The position numbers and the translations under genes are program-made. Below the pieces are notes generated by a model that did no database searches, had not been told where the DNA came from, and saw only the letters and a list, made by a program, of their open reading frames with translations. Of a stretch of DNA of 64,000 nt, positions 4,051-28,714 are shown in pieces (position 1 is the first letter of the stretch; each line of letters starts with the position of its first letter). Source of the DNA: Maribacter aquimaris (GTDB taxonomy: Bacteria; Bacteroidota; Bacteroidia; Flavobacteriales; Flavobacteriaceae); the NCBI RefSeq assembly GCF_014596745.1, contig NZ_JABTCF010000003.1, forward strand, positions 62,001-126,000, given 5' to 3'.

Positions 4051-5355
4051 CTACTTTATTATTTCGACATTGGTTAATTTAACTACAACCGGATTAGGCC
4101 AAACTTTATCATTGTAGAGTCTTTGTGCCCGGGCTATGGATATTTCCAAGAGCTCTTCATGTTGTATAAATCTTGATTCTGGAATGTTTTCGGGCCAATA
4201 TTCAACTACTTTGTCATTCTGTCCCAATACTGAAATGGTCGTGGAATCGGTAGCCTTTAAATTTTTAAGTAAAAAACTGCGCCGTCTTCCTTTAAACCAG
4301 TCCTTCTGACCCGTAATAAATACATAAACCGCATTTTCCCCCTTCTTTTGGGTAAACCAGGCATAACCATCCTTTATCGTTTTTTCCATAGGACGAACGC
4401 CTTTTATGGCTTCTTCATTTACAAACATCCACAACGCTATTTCCCGCAAACGTTCTTCCTGTTCAATCGGTATTTCCCCATTGGGCTTAGGCCCTACATT
4501 CATAAGAAAATTACCTCCCTTAGCCCTAATCTCAATTAATTTCCCAATCAATTCCCCTCCATCCTTATACGCTTCATTGGTCGGTTTATATTGCCATTGG
4601 GTACCCATGGTCATACAGGTTTCCCATGGTCCGGGCATGGGTCCGTCCGGTATCGTTTGTTCCGGCGTTTTCATTTCCCCCCTTGTTACCACAATATTGG
4701 GGTCTAAGGAATGCACATATTGAACTAATGGTCCTGTTTTAAAGGCATCAAAAAAGAGTACATCTATTGGTCCATAATTTGAAACCAGTTCTTTAACCTG
4801 CTCTTTATCATAGGCCAATAATTCAGCATTTTCAGTAATTTGGCTTTTTTCCCGTTTGCGTGAAATAAGTGTTCCTTGTTTGTTCAAAAAAGAAAAATCC
4901 TCAGGGGAAAAATACACGCCTACCTTTAAGCCCTGTTTACGTAATGCCTTAAAAAGCATGCCCGTAATATCCTTACCGTAGGGGGTATTCATGATGTTGA
5001 ACTCCGTAGTTTTAGTATCCCACATACAAAACCCATTATGGTGTTTGGTGGTGAAAACCACGTATTCCGCACCTGTGATCTTAAATAAACGTGCCCATTC
5101 ATCCGCATCGAATTTATCCGGATAAAATGTTTTGGGAAGTTCCTTAAAATATTTATCCACATACTCTTCCGAGGCTCCAACCAAGGAATGACTGATAACA
5201 CTTCCCAATTGCGAATCCATGCTCCAATGTACAAATACACCAAAGCCCATATCCATAAATTCTTCTTCTAAGGCTGGTTTGTTTTTAAGTTGGGCATACG
5301 TTGTGAAGCACACGACTAAAAATAAACCAATGGTGATTTTAATTTTTACCCTCAT
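4051..5355 (-). CDS. GH29 alpha-L-fucosidase
   Basis: A 434-residue exported protein with a type I signal peptide (TTYAQ). GH29 hallmarks are visible: GFGVFVHW (38-44), TTKHHNGFCMWDT (102-113; the family usually has KHHDGF), and GPIDVLFFDAF (195-205), where Asp203 aligns with the catalytic nucleophile. It should release alpha-L-fucose, with retention, from oligosaccharides in the periplasm or at the surface. At 434 residues it is only slightly shorter than many GH29 enzymes and has no additional C-terminal binding module. It starts 3 bp after the GH92 stop codon and is tightly packed in the operon. The Asp-to-Asn change in the KHH motif could mean altered substrate preference; the rest of the family signature is intact. 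Confidence 0.88.
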   Translation of the reverse strand: MRVKIKITIGLFLVVCFTTYAQLKNKPALEEEFMDMGFGVFVHWSMDSQLGSVISHSLVGASEEYVDKYFKELPKTFYPDKFDADEWARLFKITGAEYVVFTTKHHNGFCMWDTKTTEFNIMNTPYGKDITGMLFKALRKQGLKVGVYFSPEDFSFLNKQGTLISRKREKSQITENAELLAYDKEQVKELVSNYGPIDVLFFDAFKTGPLVQYVHSLDPNIVVTRGEMKTPEQTIPDGPMPGPWETCMTMGTQWQYKPTNEAYKDGGELIGKLIEIRAKGGNFLMNVGPKPNGEIPIEQEERLREIALWMFVNEEAIKGVRPMEKTIKDGYAWFTQKKGENAVYVFITGQKDWFKGRRRSFLLKNLKATDSTTISVLGQNDKVVEYWPENIPESRFIQHEELLEISIARAQRLYNDKVWPNPVVVKLTNVEIIK

Positions 5356-13660: not shown

Positions 13661-15334
13661 TTAGTACCCAGGATTCTGTTCCAATGAACCATCGGAAAGC
13701 TGTAACTCATTTGCAGGTATTGGTCGCAACAAGTGTTTATTAGCATCAAAAGCTCCATGGTCGATGACCTGTGGGTTATAAAGATCGATACGTTCCTCTA
13801 ATTTACCGGTACGTTTGAGTACTGCCCAACGGTTAGCTTCCCCTGCAAGCTCTAAGGCCCTTTCGTTCAGGATATCATCGATGGTGATCGCAGTATATTC
13901 GTTGGCCACTCCGGTAGCCCGTTCCCTTACAATATTCAAATGTGATAGGGCCGATGCCGTATTGCCGGCACCTAAATAAGCTTCCGCCGCTAATAAGTGG
14001 GTACCTGCTACCCTAAACACATAAGTGTCCCGTGCGCCTTCAGTATCTTCATTAAAATCCTGATCATCGAATTTCTTAAAGATCGGAAAATTGGTTCTTT
14101 CTATGTTTGCGCTATATTGATAGGTAGCACCAGGTACATTATCAGGAAGGCCAAATAAGTACTGATTTGGTTGATACACGTAATAACGGTTCAATTTGTC
14201 CGCCAATTCTGAAGCATCAAGGGCATATTTAGGATAGTATATAACAGTATCTCCAGGTTGTATTACATCTTCTGGTAAAGGCCCATCATTGTCCGCATCA
14301 TAAGTGTCTTCTATATCAGCAAATAAGGCTCTATGAATAGTAGCATCTTCCCTACTGTCATTGTCCGCGAACAATGAATAGAAAAATGGTGTAGGCATGG
14401 CTCCAAAACCAGTTGTACCATAAGGACTTGTAGTTCGATTGATTCCAGGATAATTAAATACCTGGTTCATGAAAAGAGAATGCTTATTGTTGTTCTTATC
14501 AGCTGTTAAACCACCACTTCCCCATTGAATGGCGAAAAGTATTTCATCATTCACTTGGTTGTCATATTCAAAAACCTCTGCAAATGATTGACTTCTGATA
14601 TCATAATTACCAATAGCCTGCTCTGCCAATGCAGCCGCAGTTTCAAAATCATTCGATTCTGCAAAAGAAGTATAACCCCTGGTCAAATAAACTTCGGCCA
14701 GTAAATGTTGCGCTGCCCTTTTGGAAAATCTACCCGTATCAGGGTTATCCAATAAATTGGGTAGTGCAGCATCTAAATCGGCAATAATCTGTGCATAGGT
14801 TTCCGCTTCGGTTGATCTGGCATAATCGGTACGTATGCTTTGTGGTTCCTCCAACTCCAAGACTACCCCTCCATACTGCTGTACAAGATTAAAATAAGCC
14901 AATGCCCTTAACGCTTTTGCCTGGGCAATTCCGTAATCCCTTTCACCTAAATTGGCATCACTCCAACTGATCTGATTTTCAAATCTGTTGATAACTGTAT
15001 TCGCTTTAGCAATAACACTATAGTTATTGGACCAAACCGATAGTCCTGTATCAGCGCTTAAATTGAAATAATCATTGGTTGGGCTGAATGAAAAGACCTC
15101 CCCTTTACTGGCAAAAATGTCTGTACCCATAAATTCGAACGTATAGTCACGATATACCTCCCGAAGGCTACCATATACCCCAACAACCAATTGATCCGCG
15201 TTATCCTGCGTAATAAAGTTTTCACTGGTGATGTCGGAATAGATCTCTTCCTCTATATAGTCATTACAAGCATATGACAGCATCAGAATAACCGAGAAGA
15301 CAGTTATATATTTTAGATATTTAAATATTTTCAT
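13661..15334 (-). CDS. susD: SusD/RagB-family surface glycan-binding lipoprotein
   Basis: A 557-residue lipoprotein (Cys23 in LSYACNDY) with the alpha-helical TPR-like SusD fold: NFITQDNADQLVVGVYGSLRE near the N-terminus, QAKALRALAYFNLVQQYGGVVL around residue 130-150, and HLLAEVYLTRGYT. The C-terminal LNIVRERATG...ILNERALELAGEANRWAVLKRTG stretch is diagnostic for RagB/SusD. It caps the SusC channel at the outer-membrane surface and binds incoming oligosaccharides. It lies 18 bp downstream of the susC gene in the same operon. The name is by homology only; the ligand is not starch by default. Confidence 0.95.
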   Translation of the reverse strand: MKIFKYLKYITVFSVILMLSYACNDYIEEEIYSDITSENFITQDNADQLVVGVYGSLREVYRDYTFEFMGTDIFASKGEVFSFSPTNDYFNLSADTGLSVWSNNYSVIAKANTVINRFENQISWSDANLGERDYGIAQAKALRALAYFNLVQQYGGVVLELEEPQSIRTDYARSTEAETYAQIIADLDAALPNLLDNPDTGRFSKRAAQHLLAEVYLTRGYTSFAESNDFETAAALAEQAIGNYDIRSQSFAEVFEYDNQVNDEILFAIQWGSGGLTADKNNNKHSLFMNQVFNYPGINRTTSPYGTTGFGAMPTPFFYSLFADNDSREDATIHRALFADIEDTYDADNDGPLPEDVIQPGDTVIYYPKYALDASELADKLNRYYVYQPNQYLFGLPDNVPGATYQYSANIERTNFPIFKKFDDQDFNEDTEGARDTYVFRVAGTHLLAAEAYLGAGNTASALSHLNIVRERATGVANEYTAITIDDILNERALELAGEANRWAVLKRTGKLEERIDLYNPQVIDHGAFDANKHLLRPIPANELQLSDGSLEQNPGY

Positions 15335-15352: not shown

Positions 15353-18300
15353 TTAATAAGATAATTTTAGGCCAAACAATACTGTTTTAACCGAATATCC
15401 CATATTATAGGAATTCTGTAGACCAGTTTCTGGATCTGGACCATCATAGTCCGTAAAAGTGAAAGGGTTCTGGACATCCAATGAAAAACGTAAGCTAGAT
15501 AACTTTAATTTATCCATAAGTTCTTGTGGAAATTGATACGCCAATCCAATATTACCTACCCTTACAAAAGACATATCTTCATAGAACCATGACTTAGTGC
15601 TATCCTCACCATATTCAGGTGAAGGATATTTTGCATCAGGGTTGTTTGGGGTCCAATAATCTTGCTTTAAGCTATTGAATACAGCCTTATCCCCATTAAA
15701 AGTTGCAAAATTCTGATGAAATTCTGAATGTCCGAAAACTCCTTGTCTTGTATTCACCTGAACATTCAATTCTAGATTCTTATAATTGAAGGTGTTGGTC
15801 ATACCCGCAATCCAATCTGGGGATTGTGACCCTATGACCTTTTTATCCTCTAGATTGATTTCCCCGTCACCATTTTGGTCAACAAATTTATATTGACCAG
15901 GTAAAGCTCCATAAGAAGTTGCCTCTGCAGCTTCATCAATTTGCCAAATACCATCAACTTCATAATCGAAAGTCGCATCGATAGGGGCCCCTACCTGTAA
16001 AACTCCATTTAAACGGTTATCGGATCCCACCAATATCTGATCTAAACCGCCGTACAATTCTAGAATTTCATTGTCGTTCTTAGTATAGTTTATATTTGTA
16101 CGCCAAGTAAAATTATCGTTACGCACGTTTACGGTATTAAGGGTGAATTCCATACCCTTGTTTCGTACAGAACCAAAGTTGCCTACGGTACCTCCACCTC
16201 CAAAACCGGTTACATAAGACAACTGTCTCGCTAGGATACTCCCTTCGGTTTTTTTATTATAGACTTCAACGCCAAAACTCAATCGATTTTTTAAAATAGC
16301 AAAGTCCAGCCCAAAATTATATTCCTTGGACACTTCCCATGTTAAATCTGCATTCGATAGGCCTTCAACGACCTTCCCGATTTCAAAATCATCACCAAAT
16401 AAATAACTACTTTGTGTTAAAAAAGCCAAGGAACTATATGGATTGACTGTTTGGTCGTTTCCTGATTCCCCATAGCTTAATCGTAGTTTTAGGTTATTCA
16501 ACCAATCCACTTCTTGAAGAAATGGTTCCTCACTAGCTCGCCACGCAAATGCTGCAGATGGAAAGAATTTCCATTTATTGTCTACAGCCAATTTCGATGA
16601 ACCATCATACCTGCCTGTAAATGTAAAAAGATATTTATCCTTAATACTATAGTTTAAACGTCCTGCGAAAGAAGCCAAGGTTTCTTTTTCATAATAACTA
16701 CCATAAGCCCTAGCGACATCGGCACCTCCTTCGGTATTGAAAAACAAATAAGCATCCGTATCAAAATTCCTCACCTCGATATCACTGCCTTCCGGGTTAT
16801 TATAATAAATGGAATTTATTAAAGTCGTCTTAAGGTTATGCCCATCAGCAATCTTAAAATCAAAATCCAAGATATTATCCCAAGTATAGGAAGTATTCAA
16901 AGAAGAACTGTAATAGGACCGTATTCTAGAACCATCATTACGAGATGATTTTGTTAATAACCCTCGATACTCCCCATAACGTTGGGCACTAACATTCGGA
17001 GAAAATTGCGTTTTAAAATTAATCCAATCCGTAGGTTTGTAATTTAAAAATACATTGGCTATTACATCTAAAGACCTGTCATTATTACGCCAAGCCCCAT
17101 CGGCTTCATAAACTGGATTCGTGAATCGGGGATCCTGATCGTCTGGAAACATTATCGGTTCTCCATTTGTATCATAAGGATTCACTGTAGGTGCCAAACG
17201 TAAAGTACTCCTGAACAACTCCCTACTGCCCTGCTCACGCTCGGACAATGCCAAATAAGTTTTTATGCCTACGGTCAATTGATCGGAAACTTTCTTGGAT
17301 ATCGATGCACTTAGATTGTATCTTTCATACTCCTCTATACCCATAATACCTTCATCATGCAAATAACCTAGGGACCCACTATAGACCAATCCGTCTTTAC
17401 CGCCTGACATGCCGACAGTATGACTCGTCTGCACCCCGGTTTTTCTAAACATATCCATCCAATCAGTATATCTACCATTGGCGACATTATCGGCCTCTTC
17501 ATTAGACGATTGAAATTCTGTAGATCGGTCAATAACTACATTATTGTAATCCGCTACGGTTCCAGAAGTACCTTGCCATGCTCTAGCCTTTAATACATCA
17601 TCGACAAATTCAACATATCCAGGTCCATCGTAAAGCTCTGGAATATTGGTTGCTGAACGTAACCCAAAGGAGGCTTCATAGGTAAAAACCGTTTTACCCT
17701 CAACACCATTTTTTGTGGTAATGATCACAACACCATTGGCACCACGAGACCCATAGATAGCTGTTGCTGATGCATCCTTTAAAATATCCATCTGCTCAAT
17801 ATCGGCAGGGTTCAAAACGCTGATATCATCAAAGAAAATTCCATCGACCACAAAGAGCGGTTTGGATGGGTCATCATCCAAATTATCACTTACGCCATCT
17901 TTTTCTCCACTTTGATTGGCTGTAATAACTGTATTACCCCTTATTTTGATTGAGAGTGGTGCACCCGGTTTTGAGTTCAACGTTCTAACGTCAACACCAG
18001 CGACCCTACCCTGAAGAGCTTGGCCTAAGTCGGTCTTTTTCTGATCCGTTAAGGCTTCGCTATCTAAAGACGCTACGGCCCCGGTCAAATCACTTTTCTT
18101 AACCGTACCATAACCAATGACCACAACTTCATCCAATCCGGTTGAAGAGGTTGCCAATTGCACGGAATAGCTAGATGAGCCATCCAATTTGATTTCTTTA
18201 GTCTCAAATCCTATATAGGATATGGACAATGTAGCGTTGGCATCAGCTACCGATATTATGAAATTTCCATCAAAATCGGTTACTACACCATTCGTTGTGC

Positions 18301-18439
18301 CTTTCTCCAAAACATTGGCTCCGGGCAAGGCAATACCTTGGTCATCAACAACAACCCCGGAGACCGCTGTTGTTTGTGCAAAAGCATTTGAAGAAATGCC
18401 TATGAACAAGACCATTAATAATAGTTTAAGTTTTTCCAT
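15353..18439 (-). CDS. susC: SusC/RagA-family TonB-dependent outer-membrane oligosaccharide importer
   Basis: A 1028-residue outer-membrane protein. After the signal peptide (SSNAFAQTT) there is a carboxypeptidase-regulatory-like domain (VSGVVVDDQGIALPGANV, about 27-105). The linker DEVVVIGYGTVKKSDLTGAV follows and then the plug domain (ALQGRVAGVDVRT, IKIRG, DASATAIYGSRGANGVVIITTK), which is typical of SusC. The 22-strand barrel ends in an aromatic/hydrophobic strand (VLFGLKLSY). No STN domain is present, so it is not expected to signal through an anti-sigma factor directly. It is the first gene of the locus, 84 bp downstream of the shared operator sequence at 18523-18547. Confidence 0.96.
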   Translation of the reverse strand: MEKLKLLLMVLFIGISSNAFAQTTAVSGVVVDDQGIALPGANVLEKGTTNGVVTDFDGNFIISVADANATLSISYIGFETKEIKLDGSSSYSVQLATSSTGLDEVVVIGYGTVKKSDLTGAVASLDSEALTDQKKTDLGQALQGRVAGVDVRTLNSKPGAPLSIKIRGNTVITANQSGEKDGVSDNLDDDPSKPLFVVDGIFFDDISVLNPADIEQMDILKDASATAIYGSRGANGVVIITTKNGVEGKTVFTYEASFGLRSATNIPELYDGPGYVEFVDDVLKARAWQGTSGTVADYNNVVIDRSTEFQSSNEEADNVANGRYTDWMDMFRKTGVQTSHTVGMSGGKDGLVYSGSLGYLHDEGIMGIEEYERYNLSASISKKVSDQLTVGIKTYLALSEREQGSRELFRSTLRLAPTVNPYDTNGEPIMFPDDQDPRFTNPVYEADGAWRNNDRSLDVIANVFLNYKPTDWINFKTQFSPNVSAQRYGEYRGLLTKSSRNDGSRIRSYYSSSLNTSYTWDNILDFDFKIADGHNLKTTLINSIYYNNPEGSDIEVRNFDTDAYLFFNTEGGADVARAYGSYYEKETLASFAGRLNYSIKDKYLFTFTGRYDGSSKLAVDNKWKFFPSAAFAWRASEEPFLQEVDWLNNLKLRLSYGESGNDQTVNPYSSLAFLTQSSYLFGDDFEIGKVVEGLSNADLTWEVSKEYNFGLDFAILKNRLSFGVEVYNKKTEGSILARQLSYVTGFGGGGTVGNFGSVRNKGMEFTLNTVNVRNDNFTWRTNINYTKNDNEILELYGGLDQILVGSDNRLNGVLQVGAPIDATFDYEVDGIWQIDEAAEATSYGALPGQYKFVDQNGDGEINLEDKKVIGSQSPDWIAGMTNTFNYKNLELNVQVNTRQGVFGHSEFHQNFATFNGDKAVFNSLKQDYWTPNNPDAKYPSPEYGEDSTKSWFYEDMSFVRVGNIGLAYQFPQELMDKLKLSSLRFSLDVQNPFTFTDYDGPDPETGLQNSYNMGYSVKTVLFGLKLSY

Positions 18440-18522
18440 TTTAAATTAGTTTAGTTAAAAATGTGATTATTCGTATGGATATTAATGTTTTGTTAAAATT
18501 AGAACAGTCAATCCTTTTCAAG

Positions 18523-18547
18523 ATGGATTTTTCATTCAAAAACATGG
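18523..18547 (+). promoter_or_regulatory. Shared 25-bp operator, copy 1 (susC operon)
   Basis: Direct half-sites ATGGA at 18523 and 18544 are exactly 21 bp apart, with CATTCAAAA between them. The sequence matches copies at 18676-18700 (minus) and 28378-28402 (plus), with 21-23 of 25 positions shared pairwise for the closest pair. The 21-bp unit partly repeats again (ATGGA at 18544 followed by CATTCAAA at 18554), suggesting an extended site here. Two helical turns between direct half-sites is the geometry used by AraC-type DNA-binding domains, including those of hybrid two-component regulators. Confidence 0.75.
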
Positions 18548-18675
18548 AAAGACCATTCAAATCACTTGTTTTCGATTCTTTAAATATTACCACTGAATTA
18601 TATATTATATTCAAATATTTATGCTAAAAAACGACAATAATTCAACAAAATACCGAGAGGATATGCGAAATATAT

Positions 18676-18700
18676 CCATGATTTTGGTTGTTAAATCCAT
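18676..18700 (-). promoter_or_regulatory. Shared 25-bp operator, copy 2 (SDR-uxuA-MIOX operon)
   Basis: Read on the minus strand, this begins ATGGATTTAACAACC and ends in CATGG, with half-sites 21 bp apart. It lies 77 bp upstream of the start at 18777. Relative to transcription it has the same orientation as copies 1 and 3. Confidence 0.75.
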
Positions 18701-18776
18701 CCGTACACAAAGAACAGATCTTATATTCGTAAACATGGAAATATATAATTCGTAAAGATCAAAACTTAAATCCATT

Positions 18777-19589
18777 ATGGGTCAATTCAATATTAAGGGT
18801 AAAGTAGCGGTAATTACCGGAGGCGCCGGAGTCCTAGGAGGATGTATCGCTGACAATTTAGCCGAAGCAGGGGTTAAAATCGTGATTTTGGATAGGGACG
18901 AGAAAATCATCGCTGCGAAAGTCAATGCCATTATTGACAACGGTGGTGAAGCCATTGGACTTGTTACCAATGTCCTGGATAAGGCTACTTTAGCAAAAAA
19001 TAGGGATAAAATACTTACTCGATTCAATAAAATCGATATTCTATTGAATGCCGCTGGTGGCAATATGCCCGGTGCCACTATTGGGCCCGACCAAACCATT
19101 TTTGATTTGAACATAGATGATTTTCAGAAAGTAACCGACCTTAATTTAAACGGTACCGTATTGCCCTCCCTGGTTTTCGGTGAGGTTATGGCCCAACAAA
19201 AAGAGGGTGCCATTGTGAACTATTCCTCCATGTCCGTAGAGCGGGCCATTACCCGTGTTGTTGGATATTCGGCCTCAAAGGCGGCCATGGAAAATTTTAC
19301 GCGATGGATGTCCGTGGAAATGGCCACGAAATTTGGGGGTAAAATACGTGTGAATGCTATTGCCCCTGGATTTTTTATTGGAAACCAAAATCGGAAACTA
19401 TTGACCAATGACGATGGGTCGTATACGGAACGCGGCAATACCATTATCAAGAACACCCCTATGAATCGTTTTGGGGAAGCCGACGAACTCAATGGTGCCA
19501 TTCATTTTTTATGTAGTGATGCCGCAAAATTCATTACAGGAGTGGTTATTCCGGTTGATGGTGGGTTCAGTGCCTTTAGTGGGGTATAA
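18777..19589 (+). CDS. SDR oxidoreductase, probable D-mannonate oxidoreductase (fructuronate reductase)
   Basis: A 270-residue classical short-chain dehydrogenase: cofactor loop TGGAGVLGG (14-22), Asp39 at the end of the second strand (favouring NAD(H)), NAAGG (91-95), catalytic Ser150/Ser151, Tyr164 and Lys168 in YSASK, and a C-terminal [12 protein letters not shown]. SDRs of this type next to uxuA interconvert D-fructuronate and D-mannonate in Bacteroidota and Firmicutes that lack the long-chain UxuB. It is first in a four-gene operon, 17 bp before uxuA. The specific substrate is inferred from the neighbour; a 2-keto-3-deoxygluconate dehydrogenase-type role is the main alternative. Confidence 0.82.
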
Positions 19590-19606
19590 TTAAAAAACAT
19601 CCAAAA

Positions 19607-20794
19607 ATGACAATGCAACAAACTTGGAGATGGTACGGTCCCAATGACCCAGTTTCCTTACAAGATATAAAACAAGCCGGTGCCACTGGAGTGGTCAGTG
19701 CCTTACACCATATAGCCAATGGTGAAATATGGACGGTAGAAGAAATCAACAAGCGAAAAAAGGAAATAGAAAATGCCGGATTGATATGGTCTGTTGTTGA
19801 ATCCATCCCAGTCCATGAGAACATTAAGACCCAAACAGGGGATTACAAGCTCTATATTGAAAACTACAAGAAAAGTATTGAAAACCTTGCTCGCTGTGAC
19901 ATACAAATCGTGTGTTATAATTTTATGCCTGTATTGGATTGGACGAGAACTTCTTTGGACTACGAAGTACAAGATGGCTCAAGGGCCTTACGTTTCGATG
20001 TGACTGCCTTTGCCGGCTTTGAACTATACCTATTACAAAGACCGGGGGCCGAAAAAAGCTATTCCGAGGATCAAAAGGCCAAAGCCAAAGCATACATCAA
20101 CGGCCTGTCCCCAGAAGAAAAAACCAAATTAACAAATAACATCATCGCTGGCTTGCCCGGTGCCGAAGAGGGGTATACCTTAGAACAGTTCCAGGATATC
20201 CTTAACACGTATTCCGATATCAATGGGACCAAATTAAAAGAACATCTTGTATCTTTCCTAAAGGAAATTATTCCGGTTGCCGAGCAAAATAAGGTGCTCA
20301 TGTGTATTCATCCCGATGACCCTCCTTATCAAATCCTTGGTCTACCACGCGTAGTCAGCACAGAAGCCGATTATGCATATTTATTTGAGCAAGTGCCCAG
20401 TTTATCGAATGGCATTACTTTTTGCACCGGTTCATTAGGGGTTATTCCTGAAAATAACCTGGTCCAGATTTTCAAAAGGTTTGCAGACCGGGTACATTTT
20501 GTTCATTTGCGCAGCACACAACGCGATGAGGAAGGCAATTTTTATGAAGCCAATCATTTGGAAGGGGATGTGGACATGTTTACCATTGTAAAGGAAATCC
20601 TTATGGAACAGGCAAGAAGAAAGAAGGAAGGACGTACCGATTACCATATCCCCATGCGTCCTGATCACGGGCATCAAATGCTCGATGACTTACAAAAAAA
20701 GACCAATCCAGGGTATTCCGGGATAGGCCGTTTACGCGGTTTGGCCGAAATACGTGGTTTGGAATTGGGAATTAGAAAATCATTGACACTTTAA
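19607..20794 (+). CDS. uxuA: Mannonate dehydratase
   Basis: A 395-residue UxuA-family TIM-barrel enzyme that converts D-mannonate to 2-keto-3-deoxygluconate. Typical stretches are the opening [44 protein letters not shown], the metal-binding [27 protein letters not shown] and [12 protein letters not shown]. Length matches the family. An alternative ATG two codons downstream would make little difference. Together with the preceding SDR it forms the lower part of glucuronate catabolism. The glucuronate isomerase (UxaC), KDG kinase and KDPG aldolase needed to finish the pathway are not in this window. Confidence 0.96.
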
Positions 20795-20811
20795 TTGAAA
20801 TACTCCGGCTT

Positions 20812-21684
20812 ATGAAAAATTCGACAGACCAAAACAATCCCATGCAAAATTTGGACGATTGGGAAGACAACCTAAAAGAACGCTATCCAGATCCAACCGA
20901 TATGGAAAAGGATAAGAAAGAGTTCCGAAACTATGTCGATTCAGAACGTGTCGATACGGTTCGGGAATTTTATAGGGTTAACCATCGCTACCAAACCTAT
21001 GACTTTGTCTGCCAAAAAGAAAAAGAGTTCTTAAAGTTCGACAAAAAGGAAATGTCCCTTTGGGAAGCCGTAGACTTTCTGAATACCTTGGTCGATGATA
21101 GTGATCCCGATATTGATCTGGATCAACTGCAACACTTATTGCAAACCTCGGAGGCCATACGGGCCGATGGGCATCCTGACTGGTTTGTCCTAACTGGATT
21201 TTTGCACGATATCGGCAAGGTCTTATGCCTATTCGGGGAACCACAATGGGCTGTCGTGGGCGACACTTTCCCGGTAGGATGTAAATTTTCCGATACCATC
21301 GTATACCCTGAATTTTTTGCGGACAACCCCGATTCAACCAATGGGAAATTCAATACTAAATACGGTATATACGAGCCCAATTGCGGATTGGACCATGTGA
21401 AAATGAGCTGGGGACATGACGAGTACCTATATCAAATCCTAAAGGATTATTTGCCCGAACCAGCCTTGTACATCATACGATATCATTCTTTTTATGCCCA
21501 GCATCGCGAAGGGGCCTATACCCATTTAATGAATGAAAAGGACCTCGAGATGTTCGAATGGGTCAAAAAGTTCAATCCCTACGACCTCTATACCAAAGCT
21601 CCCGTGAAACCTGATGTTAAGGCCCTTAGACCCTACTATGAGGAATTGGTGAAAAAATACTTGCCGGATGTCATAAAATTTTAA
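20812..21684 (+). CDS. myo-Inositol oxygenase (MIOX)
   Basis: A 290-residue protein of the MIOX family, the mixed-valent di-iron oxygenase of HD-domain fold that turns myo-inositol and O2 into D-glucuronate. All six iron ligands can be placed by comparison with the mammalian enzyme: His108 ([12 protein letters not shown]), His132 and Asp133 (GFLHDIGK), His202 (WGHDEY), His225 (RYHSF) and Asp258 (NPYDLY). The substrate lysine in DIGK (Lys136) is also kept. Length equals that of eukaryotic MIOX (about 285). It lies 17 bp after uxuA and 27 bp before a symporter. Its product feeds the pathway of its neighbours after isomerisation. MIOX is well known in animals, plants and fungi and much less common in bacteria. 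Confidence 0.93.
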
Positions 21685-21711
21685 TCAAAAACCAACCAAA
21701 CCAACTTTTCT

Positions 21712-23283
21712 ATGTTATCTACTTATTTGGGATTTTTCGGCTTTACGCTACTTGTTATATTTTACACGAGCTATAAGCTTCGAAAAGATAAGTTTACCAC
21801 ATCGGAAGGTTATTTCCTAGCAGGAAAAAGTCTTACTGGACCCATAATTGCGGGTTCCATGATTCTTACCAATATTTCTAGCGAGCATTTGATCGGTATG
21901 AATGGCAGTTCTTACGAGAACGGAATCATCGTCATCGCATGGGAAGTAACTTCGGCCATTGCCTTGGTTATCGCCGCCATATTCTTTATTCCCAAGTTCC
22001 TGAAAATGGGGCTAACGACCATTCCCGAATTTTTAGAGAAACGTTTTGATGGTCATATTCGTTCCATAGTGGCTTTTTTACTTATGTCCTCCTTTGTTAT
22101 TACGCTGTTACCGATTGTACTTTATTCAGGAGCAATCAATATCGAAAGTGTCTTTGATTTTTCAAACATGTTCGGAATTTCAAATGAAGCATCCTTAGTG
22201 TACACCGTGCTCACCATAGGGATTATCGGTGCTTTTTATGCCGTATTTGGTGGATTAAAGGCCATTGCATATTCCGATTCGTTGAACGGTGTGGGTTTAA
22301 TGTTGGGGGGTTTGCTCATTCCCGCCATCGCACTCTACCAGATTGGAAATGGGGATATTTTCAATGGATTGCGTACCGTTTACAATTTTGCCCCAGCCAA
22401 ATTCGACATTATAGGCAAACCAGACTCTGTATTGCCTTTTTCCGTATTGTTCACGGGGTTGATGATCAATCAATTATATTTCTGGGGAATGAACCAGTCC
22501 ATTATTCAGCGGGCTTTTGGAGCCAAAAACCTTATTGAGGCGCAAAAAGGTTTGATCTACACTGGGGTATTGAAATTATTCGTACCTATAATCATAGTAC
22601 TCCCGGGCCTCATTGCTTTCTATTATTTTCAGGACCAATATTATGAAACCCCCGATTTAATCTATCCCTTACTGGTGAAGAAGGTTTTACCCACCTATTT
22701 GTATGGTTTTTTTGCTGCCATCATTTTAGGTGCTGTCCTAAGTACCTTCAACAGTGTCTTAAACTCGGCAAGTACCATTTTCTGTTTGGATATCTACAAA
22801 AAAATCATCGATAAGGATGCGTCTGACGCCAAACTGGTAAAGTACGGCAAATTATCATCGGTCATTTTGGCTGCAATAGCCATTATCGTAGCCCCTTTTG
22901 TGGCCTATGCGCCTGACGGTCTGTATATGTTGCTACAGGAATTGAACGGTATCTTCTTTATTCCCATTTCATCCATAATCATTGCGGGCATATTTTTTAA
23001 GCAAATCAATACCAAAGGGGCAAAAGCCGGATTGTTTTTCGGATTCACATTTTATATACTGACCACCTTCGTTTTGGATATCAACATACATTTTGTCCAT
23101 TTATGGGGCATTGAATTTGTGTTGAACTTTATTATTATGTTCTTGGTTTCCAGATATAGTACAACTAAAAAAGCGGAAGTCTATAAAGAGAAATTGACTG
23201 AAGAAAAACCTTGGTCCGCCGTTAATATCGCAGGCGCGATCTTAGTTTTTTTAACCATTCTTATCTACGTATTACTTTCATAA
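21712..23283 (+). CDS. Sodium/solute symporter (SSS family)
   Basis: A 523-residue inner-membrane protein with about 13-14 hydrophobic segments and SSS-family motifs: SEGYFLAGKSLTGPIIAGSMILTNISSEHLIGMNGSSY (about 31-68), TTIPEFLEKRFD, and GAVLSTFNSVLNSASTIFCLDIYKK containing the second sodium-site helix. It is closest in style to SglT/YidK-type sugar carriers. As the last gene of the SDR-uxuA-MIOX operon it probably imports myo-inositol, glucuronate or a related sugar acid. Its stop codon lies only 9 bp from the stop of the convergent GH78 gene, and no obvious terminator separates them. Confidence 0.9.
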   Translation: MLSTYLGFFGFTLLVIFYTSYKLRKDKFTTSEGYFLAGKSLTGPIIAGSMILTNISSEHLIGMNGSSYENGIIVIAWEVTSAIALVIAAIFFIPKFLKMGLTTIPEFLEKRFDGHIRSIVAFLLMSSFVITLLPIVLYSGAINIESVFDFSNMFGISNEASLVYTVLTIGIIGAFYAVFGGLKAIAYSDSLNGVGLMLGGLLIPAIALYQIGNGDIFNGLRTVYNFAPAKFDIIGKPDSVLPFSVLFTGLMINQLYFWGMNQSIIQRAFGAKNLIEAQKGLIYTGVLKLFVPIIIVLPGLIAFYYFQDQYYETPDLIYPLLVKKVLPTYLYGFFAAIILGAVLSTFNSVLNSASTIFCLDIYKKIIDKDASDAKLVKYGKLSSVILAAIAIIVAPFVAYAPDGLYMLLQELNGIFFIPISSIIIAGIFFKQINTKGAKAGLFFGFTFYILTTFVLDINIHFVHLWGIEFVLNFIIMFLVSRYSTTKKAEVYKEKLTEEKPWSAVNIAGAILVFLTILIYVLLS

Positions 23284-23292
23284 GAAAGCAGA

Positions 23293-25560
23293 TCAATGGC
23301 TAATCAAAATAGTATTCTTCCCGGGCCGCAAATGAAGTGTTCCATTTTCGGTTTTAATACCGTTAAGCATGATTTTTGCTTTGGGGTATTGCCCAACATC
23401 AAATTCAGCCTTCATATTTCCTGGGATTTCAATGGTAAATTCCCGAGTATCGCCCAAAAGCATGTATACCGCCTTGATCTGTCCCTTAATGGTAGGCACA
23501 ATGATGGAAGTTTCTTTTAAGGAACCCAATTGTGGTTTTATGGTAGCGATGTCGTAACCCGGAACCTTGGGATTGATTCCCCATAATCCCCTCGCAACCA
23601 TATTGGCCGGAACGGCACCCCAAGCGTGGTTCCAATCGGAATTGGGTTTGTATTTCATGTCCCAGGCCTCAAGGGTCATCGTTGATCCTATACGGATCAT
23701 ATTATACCAACTTCTATTTGACGTAGCCGTCATTAAATCCAACGCATATTGCCCTTCACCGGCGTTGTATAAGGCTTCCAACAAATATTGGGACCCATAG
23801 ACACTACAGGCCATCCCCCTACCCTTAATAAATTTTGCTACTGAACCCTTAGCCGTTTCCGGTACGATATGAAATGCCATAGCCATCATATTCGAATGTA
23901 AGGAAGCATGTTCCGTACCTTCCCCATCTACATAAACACCTCGGACAGGATCAAACAATACGGTATTGATCGAGGTCTTTACTTTTTTGGCCAAATCAGT
24001 ATAGAATTTCACATCATCCGCTTTATCCAAAACTCCGGCGAACTCGGCCATGATTTCCAAATTCCTATAGTACATACAATTGACAACCGTATTTATAGGT
24101 GTAAAGACAAAACCATCGCGTTCCCCTTCCGGGGTGGCCAATTTCCAACCGGTATCCTTTTGGGCCGGTGGCCAATCCACAATATCCTTCAATTTGACCT
24201 TAGGATCTTTGAACCCCAACTTCCCCATGAATTCGGGCGTTGCATTATCGGAACTAATGAGTCCGTCTGCCCTACGCAGTCCAGCCAAGGTCTTATACTT
24301 TAAATCCTCATAATACCTTTCGATTAGTTCGGCATTACCCGTATACATATAATCCGCATGAAACATAAGTGCCACATGCAACTGCCATTCCGTTGGCCAG
24401 GTAGGATGTTCCATAAAATACTCAATGGTCCGCCTAGCCATGGCATACTCCCTATCCGTCGAATAATGACTCAATTGGTTAAGATAGGCATCCGCCTCAT
24501 ACGGAATACGTTCCCTATCCCCATCTATATAAACCCCTGCGAAGGTGGTTGCCTTAATGGAATATTTACATAAATCCCATACCTGATCAAGAATGGTATC
24601 GGAACTCTGAAAACGGCTTTCGTTATCGTTCCAATACCCATGAAACGCCAATTGCACCACATCATTTTCGAAAATCGGCTCTTTGGCGTGTTCTATTTCG
24701 GCATATCTAAAAGGCATTAAAACCGGAACCGAATCGGGAAGTGCAATGGCCCCTACCTTTGTATTCCGCTTATCGGGCAGAATGGGTAAGATATAAGTGT
24801 TCTCACGCGAGTTAACCGGTAATCGTACCTCTTGATATCGGATGGTTCCTTGAGGATCCCTATTGATCCTACCATTGATCAATTGCTCGCCTACGCGAAC
24901 GACTAAAGTATCCTTCTTTATGGCTCGGTATTTAAGTTGAAGGGTAGCGAAGGCCGCTTTTCCAAAATCGATACGATATGAACTCTTATCCGTTGCTTTT
25001 AAGGTTATCGGTCTAATGGGGTCCAATTGAAGGCTATTTGCGCTAGTGATCCCTTTTTCTCGTTTTCCTATTTTAAAGGACTGTATTCCAGAAAATGCTG
25101 ATGGCATATCCGTAGCATCCCAGATTTTAACTTTCCAATAATACGTCCGTCCAACAATTAAGGGAGTACCTTTATATTCAACATTCGATGACTGCTTATC
25201 CGACACTTTTCCAGAATCCCATACATCGCCTATGTCATTTCGTAATTGGTCTTCTGATGAAGCCACCAATAGCTGGTAGGCATTTTGGGAAATCGCCGAA
25301 TGGGGAACGATCCACCCAAATTCGGGAGAATCATCAACAATCAACACATTGTTGGTATTTCGAATGTATTCCACCGTTAAGTCTACGGGAACTTCACCAT
25401 AAACAATATCGTTTACCTTCTTCCCTTTACAAGCCAGCATCAAGAAAGTAAGAGTGACACTTAGAAAATACAACCTCGGTACAGTCCGCAAAATCGACGT
25501 ACCTTTCCTAGCGGAACCATGATTTACATCATTGGCCCCGAACAACCTAAATCTGCCCAT
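23293..25560 (-). CDS. GH78 alpha-L-rhamnosidase-like lipoprotein
   Basis: A 755-residue protein. A hydrophobic stretch ending in LMLAC (Cys44) is a lipoprotein signal, preceded by an unusually long N-terminal region of about 27 residues. No later ATG precedes the signal, so either the start is as given or a TTG/GTG is used. An N-terminal fibronectin-like domain (SPEFGWIVPH...YQLLVAS...WDSGKV...YYWKVKIWD) and the (alpha/alpha)6 barrel motif VYIDGDRERIPYEADAYLN, with the GH78 acidic residues, support the family. WNHAWGA and the C-terminal beta-sandwich (PTIKGQIKAVY) agree. It should remove alpha-L-rhamnose. It is third in an operon behind the Gfo/Idh/MocA gene (19-bp gap). Confidence 0.88.
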   Translation of the reverse strand: MGRFRLFGANDVNHGSARKGTSILRTVPRLYFLSVTLTFLMLACKGKKVNDIVYGEVPVDLTVEYIRNTNNVLIVDDSPEFGWIVPHSAISQNAYQLLVASSEDQLRNDIGDVWDSGKVSDKQSSNVEYKGTPLIVGRTYYWKVKIWDATDMPSAFSGIQSFKIGKREKGITSANSLQLDPIRPITLKATDKSSYRIDFGKAAFATLQLKYRAIKKDTLVVRVGEQLINGRINRDPQGTIRYQEVRLPVNSRENTYILPILPDKRNTKVGAIALPDSVPVLMPFRYAEIEHAKEPIFENDVVQLAFHGYWNDNESRFQSSDTILDQVWDLCKYSIKATTFAGVYIDGDRERIPYEADAYLNQLSHYSTDREYAMARRTIEYFMEHPTWPTEWQLHVALMFHADYMYTGNAELIERYYEDLKYKTLAGLRRADGLISSDNATPEFMGKLGFKDPKVKLKDIVDWPPAQKDTGWKLATPEGERDGFVFTPINTVVNCMYYRNLEIMAEFAGVLDKADDVKFYTDLAKKVKTSINTVLFDPVRGVYVDGEGTEHASLHSNMMAMAFHIVPETAKGSVAKFIKGRGMACSVYGSQYLLEALYNAGEGQYALDLMTATSNRSWYNMIRIGSTMTLEAWDMKYKPNSDWNHAWGAVPANMVARGLWGINPKVPGYDIATIKPQLGSLKETSIIVPTIKGQIKAVYMLLGDTREFTIEIPGNMKAEFDVGQYPKAKIMLNGIKTENGTLHLRPGKNTILISH

Positions 25561-25579
25561 AAAATTGTTTTATACGACC

Positions 25580-26923
25580 CTATACAGGTTTAATTTCCCA
25601 ACCAGGTTCATACGTTCTTGACCATAACTTCATGGCTTCCCTATTGAATATTCGCCCTGTGGTTTCGTCAACCTCAAAAGCATCATCGATGCGGGACGCT
25701 ATGTTCGCATAATGGGTAAGCAATTGACTGACCACTCCTTCATCAATAGGTGAAGTCAAAGCTGCTTTTCCGCGAATGGCATCAAAAAAGTTTATGGTAT
25801 GTGCTGTGGAGAGTCTTCCTCCTCCACCAAGTGCGTTACCTGATTCAATTCCTGGAGATAGATTTTCCCTGATAAGCTCCCCTTTTAAACTGTACAATTT
25901 ATAACCATCGCGATCAATATACACACAACCTTTGGATCCGTAGATGATAGTACCCCTACCTGCACCATATTTGGAATACCCGTTTCTACTTTGTCCGTCC
26001 CATTTGATGATCTTATTATCAGCGAACTTAAACGTAGCCTCCATGGTATCGTACATTTCCCAGCCATCGTCTTTATATTGGAATTTTCCTGAATTGACTT
26101 CCACACGTTCTGGATATTCTACTTGTAATGCCCATCTTGCTATGTCCAATTCATGTGTGGCATTATTCCCCATTTCCGCTGTACCATAGTCCCATCCGTA
26201 CCAATGCCAATTATAATTCCATGTATCATCGGTATAATTGCGTCTTGGGGCCGGACCTTGAAAAAGTTCCCAATCCAACCCTTCTGGTGGCGCCGTTTCC
26301 TTTTGATGGGGTACAGGTCCTCTTTTACTGGTGTAAAATGCGGTAGCGTGATAAACGTCCCCGATAATTCCCTCATGGATATCCTTGATGATTTCTTGGG
26401 ATTGGGCGGAAGATCGCTGTTGGTTACCCATTTGCACCACCTTATTGTATTTCTTTTGATAGGCTACGAGCAATTCCCCTTCCCTAGGGTTATGGCTACA
26501 TGGTTTTTCCAAAAACACATGCTTTCCAGCCTGCATGGCCATACACGCCCCTGGTGCATGCCAATGGTCCGGGGTAGCCATAAAAATGGCATCAATATGT
26601 TTATCATCGATGATCTTGCGAATATCATTTTCTAAAATCGGGGTATTCGGAAAGGCTTTGGAAACCACTTCTGCGGCTTTTTCACGTTGACTTTTCATGA
26701 CATCGCACAAATAGCGCAACTCCACATTGCTTTCTTTTTTAACTATTCCCCCTAAATAAGCCTGGTACCTACGACCCAAACCTTGGATAGCAACATGGAT
26801 ACGGTCATTGGCCCCAATGATCTTGGAATAGCTCTGCGCACTCATGGCATTTAAACTACCACCCAATGCAACACCTGCTGTTCCTGTTACTGCTTTTTTT
26901 ATAAAACTTCTTCTGTTCGACAT
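25580..26923 (-). CDS. Tat-exported Gfo/Idh/MocA-family oxidoreductase
   Basis: A 447-residue NAD(P)-dependent sugar oxidoreductase. The N-terminus NRRSFIKKAVTGTAGVALGG is a twin-arginine signal, so the folded, cofactor-loaded enzyme is exported to the periplasm. The Rossmann motif is GLGRRYQAY, followed by ATPDHWHAP and the family signature GKHVFLEKPCSHNPREGE with the catalytic lysine. A C-terminal mixed-sheet domain carries GNNATHELDIARWAL. Secreted members of this family oxidise the C3 hydroxyl of glycosides or reduce 3-keto sugars. Its position between a DUF1080 protein and a GH78 enzyme supports that reading. Alternatives are inositol or N-acetylgalactosaminide (GH109-type) activity. Confidence 0.9.
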   Translation of the reverse strand: MSNRRSFIKKAVTGTAGVALGGSLNAMSAQSYSKIIGANDRIHVAIQGLGRRYQAYLGGIVKKESNVELRYLCDVMKSQREKAAEVVSKAFPNTPILENDIRKIIDDKHIDAIFMATPDHWHAPGACMAMQAGKHVFLEKPCSHNPREGELLVAYQKKYNKVVQMGNQQRSSAQSQEIIKDIHEGIIGDVYHATAFYTSKRGPVPHQKETAPPEGLDWELFQGPAPRRNYTDDTWNYNWHWYGWDYGTAEMGNNATHELDIARWALQVEYPERVEVNSGKFQYKDDGWEMYDTMEATFKFADNKIIKWDGQSRNGYSKYGAGRGTIIYGSKGCVYIDRDGYKLYSLKGELIRENLSPGIESGNALGGGGRLSTAHTINFFDAIRGKAALTSPIDEGVVSQLLTHYANIASRIDDAFEVDETTGRIFNREAMKLWSRTYEPGWEIKPV

Positions 26924-26937
26924 GTTCCCCAGGTTTT

Positions 26938-28305
26938 TTAAGATTTAATTTTTATATTTTTGAAAGACACTCTATCCCCATGATCTTGTAATAAGATCTG
27001 TCCTTTTTCAAGTTCGCCGAAATTGGGCCACTTTGCATACTTACTTTCAGAAACCAGTTTTTTGAAAACATCGCTGTTTCTTTCGTATTCCAAGACTTTC
27101 ATTCCATTCAACCAATGCTCTACATGATTACCTTTTGAAATAATATGTGCAGAGTTCCATTCCCCGATCGGATTCATGTGTTTGTTGGCATCCGCTTTGA
27201 TCAAATCATAAAGGGAAGAGACTGTCCTACTTCCTTCATGATTACCCAATTTAGCATCAGGATGTAAAGCGTCATCCAATATTTGGTATTCAAGTCCGAT
27301 AGAAGATCCCGGTCCTTTGTTGATTTCGGTATCCACATAATATTTTATACCGCTGTTTGCCGCTGGAGTCAATTTGAAATCAACCTTGAATTCAAAATCA
27401 CCATACAACTCCTTAGTAACAATATCCCCTCCGGCAGCGGATTCTTTACCTCCTGATGAAAGTACAGAAAGCACACCGTCCTCAATTTCCCATCCTTGGC
27501 TTGGAAACTCCTCTAATTTGGCACCACGCCATCCTTTGGTAGTTTTTCCGTCCCACAGTAATTTCCATCCATCCTTCTTTTCATCTATGGTGAGTTGGTT
27601 TTTGGTAATTACAGGCTTAAGGGGTGACTTTCTGGCGTACTTAGCAAGACTATCGGTAAGGATGTTTATGTTTTTCCATATAATATGCGTGCCTTCTTTT
27701 TGAGTATCCTTAATGGCATGCACTTGCAGGCCAATAAAGCCCGTTGCGGTTTTATCATCAATGAGATGGGCTGCCGGCACATCATTGATCCAGGTTTTAA
27801 TGGTATCGCCAATGGCCTCAATACGGTAATGGTTCCATTCGTTTTGTTTAAAGGCTTTTTGTGCTTCGGGATTATCGGTCAAGGGACACAACCAACCTCT
27901 TCGTGACTCATCATAAATTCCTGCACTCCATGCGCGTTCAGAGGGGTCTATCTCTATTTGATATCCGTGAACCCTTCCATCCCTATAATAAGGAAAACTA
28001 TTGGAACGAATCTGAATTCCTGAATTCATGGAAGAATCGACCTTATAATCCAATTCCAAAATAAAATCACTATAAAGTTTATCCGATCTTAAGAACGTGT
28101 TTGGCGTATTTCGAACCGTTGACCCGACAATGGCACCATCTTCTACTTTGTAGGTTGCCTCCCCACCTATCACCGACCAACCGTCCAGGGTTTTTCCATC
28201 GAAAATAGTTGACCATGGAGTATTATCTTTTTCTTTTTGGGCACAACTTAAGAAACCAATAACGGTAAGAAGCAATAATGCTTTCTTCAAACTACTTTTT
28301 TTCAT
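26938..28305 (-). CDS. Two-domain DUF1080 (3-keto-disaccharide hydrolase) lipoprotein
   Basis: A 455-residue lipoprotein (Cys21 in LSCAQ) with two successive DUF1080 concanavalin-like domains. The first is at about 30-215 (WSTIFDGKTLDGWSVIGG, SDFILELDYKV, NSGIQIRS). The second is at about 235-455 (WKLLWDGKTTKGWRGA, GDFEFKVDFKL, NSGIKYYV, LEYQILDD). DUF1080 proteins include 3-keto-glycoside hydrolases/lyases that cleave glycosidic bonds after C3 oxidation. The next gene is a Tat-exported oxidoreductase that could supply or reduce the 3-keto group. It is first in a three-gene operon preceded by the shared operator at 28378-28402. Whether both domains are catalytic is unknown. Confidence 0.9.
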   Translation of the reverse strand: MKKSSLKKALLLLTVIGFLSCAQKEKDNTPWSTIFDGKTLDGWSVIGGEATYKVEDGAIVGSTVRNTPNTFLRSDKLYSDFILELDYKVDSSMNSGIQIRSNSFPYYRDGRVHGYQIEIDPSERAWSAGIYDESRRGWLCPLTDNPEAQKAFKQNEWNHYRIEAIGDTIKTWINDVPAAHLIDDKTATGFIGLQVHAIKDTQKEGTHIIWKNINILTDSLAKYARKSPLKPVITKNQLTIDEKKDGWKLLWDGKTTKGWRGAKLEEFPSQGWEIEDGVLSVLSSGGKESAAGGDIVTKELYGDFEFKVDFKLTPAANSGIKYYVDTEINKGPGSSIGLEYQILDDALHPDAKLGNHEGSRTVSSLYDLIKADANKHMNPIGEWNSAHIISKGNHVEHWLNGMKVLEYERNSDVFKKLVSESKYAKWPNFGELEKGQILLQDHGDRVSFKNIKIKS

Positions 28306-28714
28306 AATTATTTAGGAATGTGATTAATTTAGAGTTAAAAATACACTATAAAAATAGCAGTATTCTAAAGAATAAACATGGATTTATCATTCAAAAGCAT
28401 GGGATTTTAATAAATACTTAAGGGCTTAAGTGAAAATCAAGGATTTAGGGTGATACCCAATTCGTCCTTAACCTGTTTCTATTTCCCCTTTAGCTTTAAC
28501 AAGCTATCCTATCGGCTCCCTTTTTTATTTCGAACGATAGATGGGTGTTTGAAAATATCAACACAATATCATGGTCTCTTTTCCTTTTCTATTGATAACC
28601 CTTTCTATAAACAATAGAACAAAAAACGAATCGTTTAAGAATTCGTAAGTGATGGGTTGCCCCCTCAACCGTAGTACAGGGAGCCATTAATGCCTAAGCA
28701 AATAGCTGACCACT
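28306..28714. other. Intergenic region between divergent DUF1080 and TPM genes
   Basis: About 409 bp without a gene. It holds the operator copy at 28378-28402 on the DUF1080 side. Elsewhere I see no strong promoter box, tRNA or repeat; weak TAttTTTA-like boxes lie between the operator and the DUF1080 start. Confidence 0.5.
28378..28402 (+). promoter_or_regulatory. Shared 25-bp operator, copy 3 (DUF1080-Gfo/Idh-GH78 operon)
   Basis: It reads ATGGATTTATCATTC, then AAAAG, then CATGG, with CATGG half-sites at 28377 and 28398, 21 bp apart. It differs from copy 1 at only two of 25 positions. It ends 73 bp upstream of the start at 28305 and has the same orientation relative to transcription as copies 1 and 2. 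Confidence 0.75.

Follow-up and report, generated by a model that had tools for sequence, protein, structure and literature searches.

The window, that is, the whole stretch of DNA analysed here, comprises 64,000 nt of contig C21 (NZ_JABTCF010000003.1, positions 62,001 to 126,000) of Maribacter aquimaris. It carries three copies of a 25-bp site, each in front of a different operon: a susC-led array, an inositol/uronate operon (SDR-uxuA-MIOX-SSF) and a DUF1080-GFO-GH78 operon. A hybrid two-component system (HTCS) combines a sensor, a kinase, a receiver and an AraC-type domain in one protein. Sequence comparison across genomes indicates, at a probability of about 0.88, that the HTCS encoded 6.9 kb to the left of window base 1 is the regulator that binds the 25-bp site and activates the three operons.

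The 25-bp site

In gene sense the site reads CCATGNTTTTGRNTGNNAAATCCAT, and it is present at exactly three positions of the M. aquimaris genome (4,863,295 bases; G000). The original prediction, made from the letters of the window, had placed the copies where we find them, on the same strands, 84, 77 and 73 bp upstream of the susC, SDR and DUF1080 starts and in identical orientation relative to each gene. It had also stated that the sequence was found nowhere else in the intergenic regions read. Extended to the whole genome, a search with the shared-letter pattern at up to 3 mismatches returned these three copies, all with 0 mismatches, and no others at random places. As a chance level, the pattern read backwards gave 3 genomic matches within 3 mismatches, and none of 100 dinucleotide shuffles of the window reached three matches under the same mismatch limit (mean 0.01). 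Three copies are few, and in principle their likeness could be due to chance or to the copying of a small repeat. The shuffles, the whole-genome search and the conservation of the site before the orthologous operons of relatives already refute this explanation, to which we give practically no weight. A repeat or transposon remnant was likewise dismissed, as nothing beyond the site and a promoter box recurs among the aligned loci.

CCAT boxes occupy site positions 1-4 and 22-25 in all three window copies; these are the ATGG half-sites of the original prediction, 21 bp apart as it claimed. Across 58 aligned sites, including the three from M. aquimaris, the core CCATg.tTTTGA...A....TCCAT is kept and both boxes are conserved. 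The letters listed earlier as shared are alike in the three copies, but relatives keep neither the "central CA" nor the AAA preceding TCCAT.

The candidate regulator

What led to the HTCS was an open reading frame (ORF) of about 1345 aa that recurs near MIOX in relatives (14 loci). The four of these ORFs that were scanned contain propeller, Y_Y_Y, HisKA, HATPase, receiver and AraC-type domains. M. aquimaris has one full-length orthologue (C21:51086-55123, 64% to the query), and the next HTCS-like matches in its genome reach 31-36% over the C-terminal half. Its gene (G000:C21:51083-55129; 1348 aa) closes the susC array, and in the protein the Reg_prop, Y_Y_Y, HisKA, HATPase_c, Response_reg and HTH_18/HTH_AraC domains each exceed the Pfam gathering score. 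The gene is co-localised with the susC/susD locus, as in Bacteroides-type HTCS.

The original prediction had called for one activator with AraC-type geometry, in particular a hybrid two-component regulator. The comparative evidence given below supports this proposal, from which we infer binding and activation. The operator is thereby supported as a member of the known class of HTCS sites, and the identity of the HTCS completes the earlier interpretation. The statement that the window holds no regulator gene is correct for the AraC and HTCS types, but it overlooked a LytTR response regulator with a histidine kinase at 34268-36873. Our Pfam scan covered 44 of the 58 listed ORFs of at least 120 aa (14 that overlap longer opposite-strand ORFs were omitted); among these 44, the LytTR response regulator and the TPR histidine kinase were the only regulators, with no AraC or HTCS type. 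Outside the array, an NrtR/AraR-type regulator (NUDIX plus winged helix; G000:C21:47593-48345) is encoded near the HTCS gene, beside GH3 and GH9 genes.

Co-occurrence of site and regulator

HTCS genes and the site were searched in 64 genomes, that of M. aquimaris included. The set consists of 62 genomes with full-length MIOX, a congener without MIOX (G258) and G119, which is not a random control because it was included after already showing a site in a first family search. That search (up to 2 mismatches) matched 58 of 299 genomes, mostly as background: 24 of 30 matches in the relatives' loci fell inside ORFs, and 4 of the other 6 lay before susC, MIOX or DUF1080. With the M. aquimaris HTCS as query, 33 of the 64 genomes matched at E <= 1e-150, G129 merely at paralogue level (517 bits). 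Orthologues were called at >= 1410 bits, which gives 32 HTCS-positive genomes (31 relatives and M. aquimaris; 51-69% identity, 1410-2078 bits); the best non-orthologue among the matches listed reached 568 bits. One relative, G228, has two HTCS orthologues (C3:468363-472394, 69%, and 500639-504655, 64%), which lie 28 kb apart and flank susC/MIOX sites.

The composite pattern CCATNNNTTTG-N9-TCCAT-N21-TANNTT, run with up to 1 mismatch, gave 58 matches in the 64 genomes; 26 of the 32 HTCS-positive genomes account for 53. All 32 exact matches are in HTCS-positive genomes and no more than 50 kb from the HTCS gene, as are 17 of the 21 one-mismatch matches in these genomes. The 32 HTCS-negative genomes yielded no exact match and 5 with one mismatch each (G135, G103, G080, G247, G119). 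Read in reverse, the pattern matched 9 times in the 64 genomes. The two congeners searched, G032 and G258, have neither the HTCS nor a composite match. Absence of the site upstream of orthologous operons, which had been named in advance as grounds for rejecting the prediction, is not what we observe: in relatives, the site precedes MIOX, susC, DUF1080, SDR or uxuA operons, and it is kept there alongside the orthologous HTCS, with G339 and G119 as exceptions.

A refined matrix found an upstream site above 12.5 bits in 30 of the 32 HTCS-positive genomes, a list that is partly self-selected because the training loci were HTCS-positive. Elsewhere it gave a 16.4-bit match in the HTCS-negative G129, not before a gene, and 7 intragenic matches above 12.5 bits. 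Cleaner tests are a matrix made from the three window sites, a leave-one-genome-out test upstream of MIOX, and loci from other genomes. The three-site matrix was scanned over 1.25 Mb of HTCS-positive and 0.30 Mb of HTCS-negative stretches. Above 14 bits it gave 66 matches: 42 upstream ones outside the M. aquimaris genome, 17 intragenic ones and 7 others (own sites among these). HTCS-positive genomes hold 41 of the 42 upstream matches, and the single HTCS-negative one is that of G119.

MIOX matches in 397 genomes of the family form two clades, at about 362-379 and about 313-327 bits. In the leave-one-genome-out test, the region upstream of MIOX scored above 12.5 bits in 21 of 23 HTCS-positive loci and in 0 of 8 HTCS-negative loci of the same clade (best 7.0 bits). 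The second clade is the only one in 31 genomes, of which 8 MIOX loci entered the test; none of these 8 retrieved loci, 7 of them HTCS-negative, had a site (best 3.9 bits). In the eight second-clade loci viewed, MIOX forms a simple pair with SSF and has no site upstream and no HTCS alongside.

Loci from other genomes were taken from the best 80 of the matches listed, and comprise 11 orthologue loci, picked at >=50% identity, and 69 paralogue loci. The named orthologues among these matches belong to Flavobacterium, Cellulophaga, Jejuia, Maribacter and Algibacter and, in other orders, to Marinoscillum furvescens (Cytophagales, 62%) and Puteibacter caeruleilacunae (Marinilabiliales, 50%). A site is present in 9 of the 11 orthologue loci, with the promoter box at exactly 21 nt in 7 of 10 matches; the misses are L228, where the contig ends just after the HTCS, and L231, which has no susC or MIOX start. 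One of the eleven, L229, duplicates DNA of G203 and does not count as independent, and the other ten match no earlier stretch. Marinoscillum has a 33.3-bit site before susC, with no TAnnTT box at 21 nt. Puteibacter has sites of 24.3 and 18.9 bits before susC, the latter with the box at 21 nt. In the DNA-binding domain (last 79 residues), the orthologues share 71-90% identity with the M. aquimaris protein, above the whole-protein identity, and 33 of the 79 columns are invariant across 33 sequences. The 69 paralogue loci (1.47 Mb) gave 5 matches above 14 bits, none of them before a gene and none with the box.

These comparisons also bear on whether a different regulator, such as an HTCS paralogue, a free AraC protein or a LacI protein, binds the site while the HTCS merely travels with the locus. 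There are candidates for such a role, namely four other HTCS-like genes identified by similarity in M. aquimaris (open frames of 1360-1414 aa) and LacI genes near the locus in G374 and G323, and G119 has the site without the orthologue. However, the site follows the HTCS orthologue into loci of differing gene content and into two other orders, the paralogue loci have no upstream site, and the same-clade MIOX loci without the HTCS have none either. We consider this alternative unlikely. A LacI-type operator was dismissed because the site is not palindromic; LacI operators are not known to take the form of direct, non-palindromic repeats.

Promoter geometry

A TAnnTT box lies exactly 21 nt after the site in all three window copies. 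Although the three-site matrix contained no promoter letters, TANNTT stands at exactly 21 nt in 36 of its 41 upstream sites in HTCS-positive genomes, and any other spacing occurs at most 4 times. In mapped promoters of Flavobacterium psychrophilum, as described in PMC9723704, TAnnTTTG occupies -12 to -5, and the site would therefore span about -58 to -34. TAnnTT is present in all three window promoters, with the last two letters varying. Promoters of B. fragilis are described with TAnnTTTG and a TTTG near -33, a -33 motif that was not found in F. johnsoniae (PMC7366714). We found no TTTG around -33 in the 58 aligned sites, just a weak preference for T at +1 to +3 after the site. Letters that are nearly unconserved at -33 would be expected if an activator replaced that contact. 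A sigma-70 promoter scan of the window gave 15 promoters against 21.1 expected and is uninformative for this phylum.

The strict spacing to the TAnnTT box is also what one would expect if the block were an extended promoter, an alternative sigma-factor element or a leader RNA feature. Against this stand the confinement of exact composite matches to HTCS-bearing genomes, the housekeeping -7 type of the box itself and the lack of any Rfam match in the window at gathering scores. We regard this possibility as very improbable. The usual sigma contacts are nearer the start than about -58 to -34, and an alternative sigma element was dismissed on the position and genome distribution of the site.

Altogether, the sites, their uniqueness, the co-occurrence with the HTCS, the fixed promoter spacing and the gene order come directly from computation. 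On the other hand, several observations weigh against the HTCS as the regulator of the three operons. The genomes are kin to each other, and the counts are not independent. Four of the 53 composite matches in HTCS-positive genomes, all with one mismatch, are far from the HTCS. Six of the 32 HTCS-positive genomes have no composite match (G011, G211, G227, G339, G347 and G382), although the refined matrix found a site before susC in G011, G227, G347 and G382. G211 is borderline before MIOX (12.4 bits, box present), and G339 has the HTCS (51%) with no site before MIOX (3.0 bits) or elsewhere in the retrieved stretches. The HTCS-positive G236 lacks a site at its MIOX, which belongs to the other clade. 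Conversely, G119 has a good site with a correctly spaced box and no HTCS orthologue (best 36%, 453 bits); the site may be orphaned, or the regulator may have been exchanged. None of the three window boxes retains the full TG end of the -7 box; one has just the G. Finally, a hairpin after susD and gaps of 170 and 150 bp in the susC array could separate the HTCS gene from the susC promoter.

As an observation on G119, its intact site (G119:C37:420581-420605) lies before a DUF1080-GFO operon that is 81% identical to that of the window.

Gene content of the three operons

The susC array comprises 13 genes on one strand over 29.4 kb, with largest gaps of 170 and 150 bp, and extends beyond the left edge of the window, where it ends with the HTCS gene. 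Its order is SusC, SusD, GH92, GH28, GH115-like, GH92, GH29, GH3, GH92, PI-PLC (PF16670), GH115, calcineurin-like metallophosphoesterase and HTCS, the last four genes lying left of the window. An adjacent susC-susD pair, glycosidases and a regulator make it a polysaccharide utilisation locus. The inositol/uronate operon has 4 genes (SDR, UxuA, MIOX, SSF) with gaps of 17 to 27 bp, and the DUF1080-GFO-GH78 operon has 3 genes with gaps of 14 and 19 bp (Table 1). On these gene families, the link drawn in the original prediction between glycan import, 3-keto-type chemistry and inositol/uronate catabolism stands.

The 170-bp gap after susD contains a terminator-like hairpin (13602-13581, minus strand), a possible attenuation point between importer and enzymes; matches of the terminator-type hairpin scan were no more frequent than in shuffles. 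A second GFO and DUF1080 pair (G000:C21:30337-33085), 25% and 56% to those of the window, is located 18 kb left of the HTCS and has no site.

Table 1. Positions of the predicted operators, -7 boxes and genes in the window.
Feature	Position	Strand	Remarks
Predicted HTCS operator, susC array	18523..18547	-	CCATGTTTTTGAATGAAAAATCCAT in gene sense
Sigma-A type -7 box TAATTTTA	18494..18501	-	21 nt downstream of susC operator
Predicted HTCS operator, SDR-uxuA-MIOX-SSF operon	18676..18700	+	CCATGATTTTGGTTGTTAAATCCAT
-7 box TATATTCG	18722..18729	+	21 nt downstream of SDR operator
Predicted HTCS operator, DUF1080-GFO-GH78 operon	28378..28402	-	CCATGCTTTTGAATGATAAATCCAT
-7 box TATTTTTA	28349..28356	-	21 nt downstream of DUF1080 operator
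SusC/RagA TonB-dependent outer-membrane importer	15353..18439	-	First gene of collinear array
SusD-like lipoprotein	13661..15334	-	Pfam SusD_RagB above cut-off; NCBIfam below cut-off
GH92 (alpha-mannosidase family)	11418..13490	-	
GH28 family	9786..11414	-	
GH115-like	7671..9749	-	62 bits, cut-off 27
GH92 family	5359..7674	-	
GH29 alpha-L-fucosidase family	4051..5355	-	
GH3 family with PA14 domain	1472..4024	-	
GH92 family, 5' part in window	1..1321	-	Whole gene G000:C21:61075-63321
SDR = D-mannonate oxidoreductase	18777..19589	+	NCBIfam PRK08277, 369 bits vs cut-off 281
UxuA mannonate dehydratase	19607..20794	+	
MIOX inositol oxygenase	20812..21684	+	PF05153; nearest solved structures are inositol oxygenases 2huo/2ibn
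SSF sodium:solute symporter	21712..23283	+	
DUF1080 / 3-keto-disaccharide hydrolase family	26938..28305	-	PF06439
GFO/IDH/MocA oxidoreductase	25580..26923	-	Nearest NCBIfam glycoside 3-dehydrogenase BT_2158 family, far below cut-off
GH78 alpha-L-rhamnosidase family	23293..25560	-	

Proposed mechanism

In the mechanism that we propose, the periplasmic propeller domain of the HTCS would bind an oligosaccharide released from the target glycan, and the kinase would then phosphorylate the receiver domain. Two AraC-type DNA-binding domains would occupy both CCAT boxes, which at 21 bp (two helical turns) would place them on one DNA face. The downstream half-site would sit at the position of the -33 element, and the HTCS would recruit RNA polymerase as a class-II-type activator. 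The operons of 13, 4 and 3 genes would be switched on together, so that SusCD import with surface or periplasmic glycosidases, inositol/uronate catabolism and 3-keto-type chemistry would be co-induced. As the susC array ends with the HTCS gene, the protein may amplify its own synthesis; the hairpin after susD could damp this positive feedback. Binding, phosphorelay, activation as the direction of control, transcription as operons, the location of the enzymes and the ligand are steps that we infer.

That a phosphorylated HTCS binds and activates is proposed by analogy. HTCS motifs of Bacteroides are described as direct repeats with a mean of 21 bp between tandem sites, for which a dimer on one DNA face was proposed (PMC3878776). 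Moreover, two Bacteroides HTCS proteins are reported to shift susCD promoter fragments once the interface between receiver and DNA-binding domain is opened (PMC11253607).

Candidate substrates

The target may be a sugar chain that carries both inositol and glucuronic acid; it could be the head group of membrane lipids common in plants and algae. Glycosyl inositol phosphorylceramides (GIPCs) are plant and algal sphingolipids that contain glucuronic acid, inositol and phosphate. Plant GIPC is described as GlcNAc(a1-4)GlcA(a1-2)inositol-phosphoceramide (GlcNAc, N-acetylglucosamine; GlcA, glucuronic acid) with additions of mannose, glucosamine, arabinose and galactose (PMC8099651; also PMC6743777). 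The enzyme families would fit the bonds of this lipid one by one, at the level of families. PI-PLC would release the head group from the ceramide, and GH92/GH125, NAGLU, GH2 and GH43/arabinofuranosidase would trim mannose, N-acetylglucosamine, galactose and arabinose. GH92 is encoded in the M. aquimaris locus, and GH125, NAGLU, GH2 and GH43/arabinofuranosidase were seen only in the loci of relatives. GH115 would split the alpha-1,2 bond between glucuronic acid and inositol, the phosphoesterase would free inositol, and MIOX, SDR and UxuA would then catabolise inositol and glucuronate. Among the closest GH115 proteins of solved structure are xylan alpha-1,2-glucuronidases.

The neighbourhood of the HTCS in relatives was surveyed within 20 kb, at an identity of at least 45% and in the stretches retrieved. 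At least one recognised neighbour was present in 31 of the 32 HTCS-positive genomes, and a GH92 type in 22. In whole genomes, PI-PLC-C1 occurs in 19 of the 23 HTCS-positive genomes with first-clade MIOX, in 1 of the 9 HTCS-positive genomes with the second clade only and in 4 of the 32 HTCS-negative ones. Genes preceded by a site in relatives encode NAGLU (G061, G308), GH2 (G308) and an arabinofuranosidase-like protein (G061), and the same gene runs include a glucosamine isomerase/PIG-L fusion (G061, G308) and GH43 (G308). In two loci, L225:4886-6814 and L223:13833-15761, this fusion combines a glucosamine-6-phosphate isomerase-like part with PIG-L (GlcNAc-PI de-N-acetylase).

On these enzyme families, we suggest tentatively, at somewhat less than even odds, that the regulon is a dedicated GIPC catabolic locus with one HTCS sensing the head group. 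We keep the suggestion at this level because GH28, GH29 and GH78 are left unexplained and because nine short loci have neither MIOX nor PI-PLC. A pectin- or glucuronomannan-like polysaccharide, with the inositol genes serving a side product, is another plausible substrate, which we would place just short of an even chance. It would account for the GH28, GH78 and GH29 genes and for the nine HTCS-positive genomes with a short susCD-GH92 version of the locus: 7 of the 9 have GH115-like or GH28, and in the stretches retrieved none shows MIOX or PI-PLC at up to 20 kb from the HTCS. However, the other 23 HTCS-positive genomes have MIOX (20), metallophosphoesterase (19), PI-PLC (15) and GH115b (15) within this distance, and NAGLU and the glucosamine isomerase/PIG-L fusion are found in the relatives' locus. 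In the open-licence PMC literature searched, we found no description of a bacterial utilisation locus for inositol-phosphate glycolipids.

Relation to known systems

AraC-family class II activators bind a pair of direct half-sites, of which the proximal one borders on the -33/-35 region. The window sites would have this arrangement too. Unlike in these activators, the sensor and the phosphorelay of the HTCS are in the same polypeptide, and the promoter is of the TAnnTTTG type of Bacteroidota.

HTCS are described as a major class of glycan-locus regulators in Bacteroides (PMC11253607). The HTCS regulons of B. thetaiotaomicron (Ravcheev et al. 2013, PMC3878776, where RegPrecise is named) likewise have a direct repeat of about 21 bp upstream of susC-type operons and a regulator with an AraC-type DNA-binding domain in the same locus. 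In that species, HTCS_Man is described with mannosidases and a glucuronidase under its control, and HTCS_Rgu with several operons of one locus and one site type. The regulon of M. aquimaris differs in several respects. It belongs to another bacterial group, the Flavobacteriaceae, and the box sequences cannot be compared, since those of PMC3878776 are published as figure logos. It includes an inositol oxygenase operon, whereas the word inositol is absent from the main text of PMC3878776, and neither inositol nor PI-PLC nor MIOX figures in the descriptions of HTCS_Man and HTCS_Rgu available there. A constant distance of 21 nt to the -7 box was measured here, and none is apparent for B. thetaiotaomicron in the same source.

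Beyond the original prediction, the present analysis adds the identity of the regulator, the 21-nt spacing to the box, the finding that the HTCS gene closes the array, and that half of the locus which holds PI-PLC, GH115 and the metallophosphoesterase. The published HTCS DNA motifs that we found, in the sources as available, are those of gut Bacteroides; here, an HTCS and its predicted operator come from another family. The whole predicted regulon of M. aquimaris consists of three operons and 20 genes; with the promoter geometry defined exactly and about 30 genomes for comparison, the binding code and the activation mechanism are directly testable. In addition, the genes under its predicted control point to inositol-phosphate glycolipids as a substrate class.

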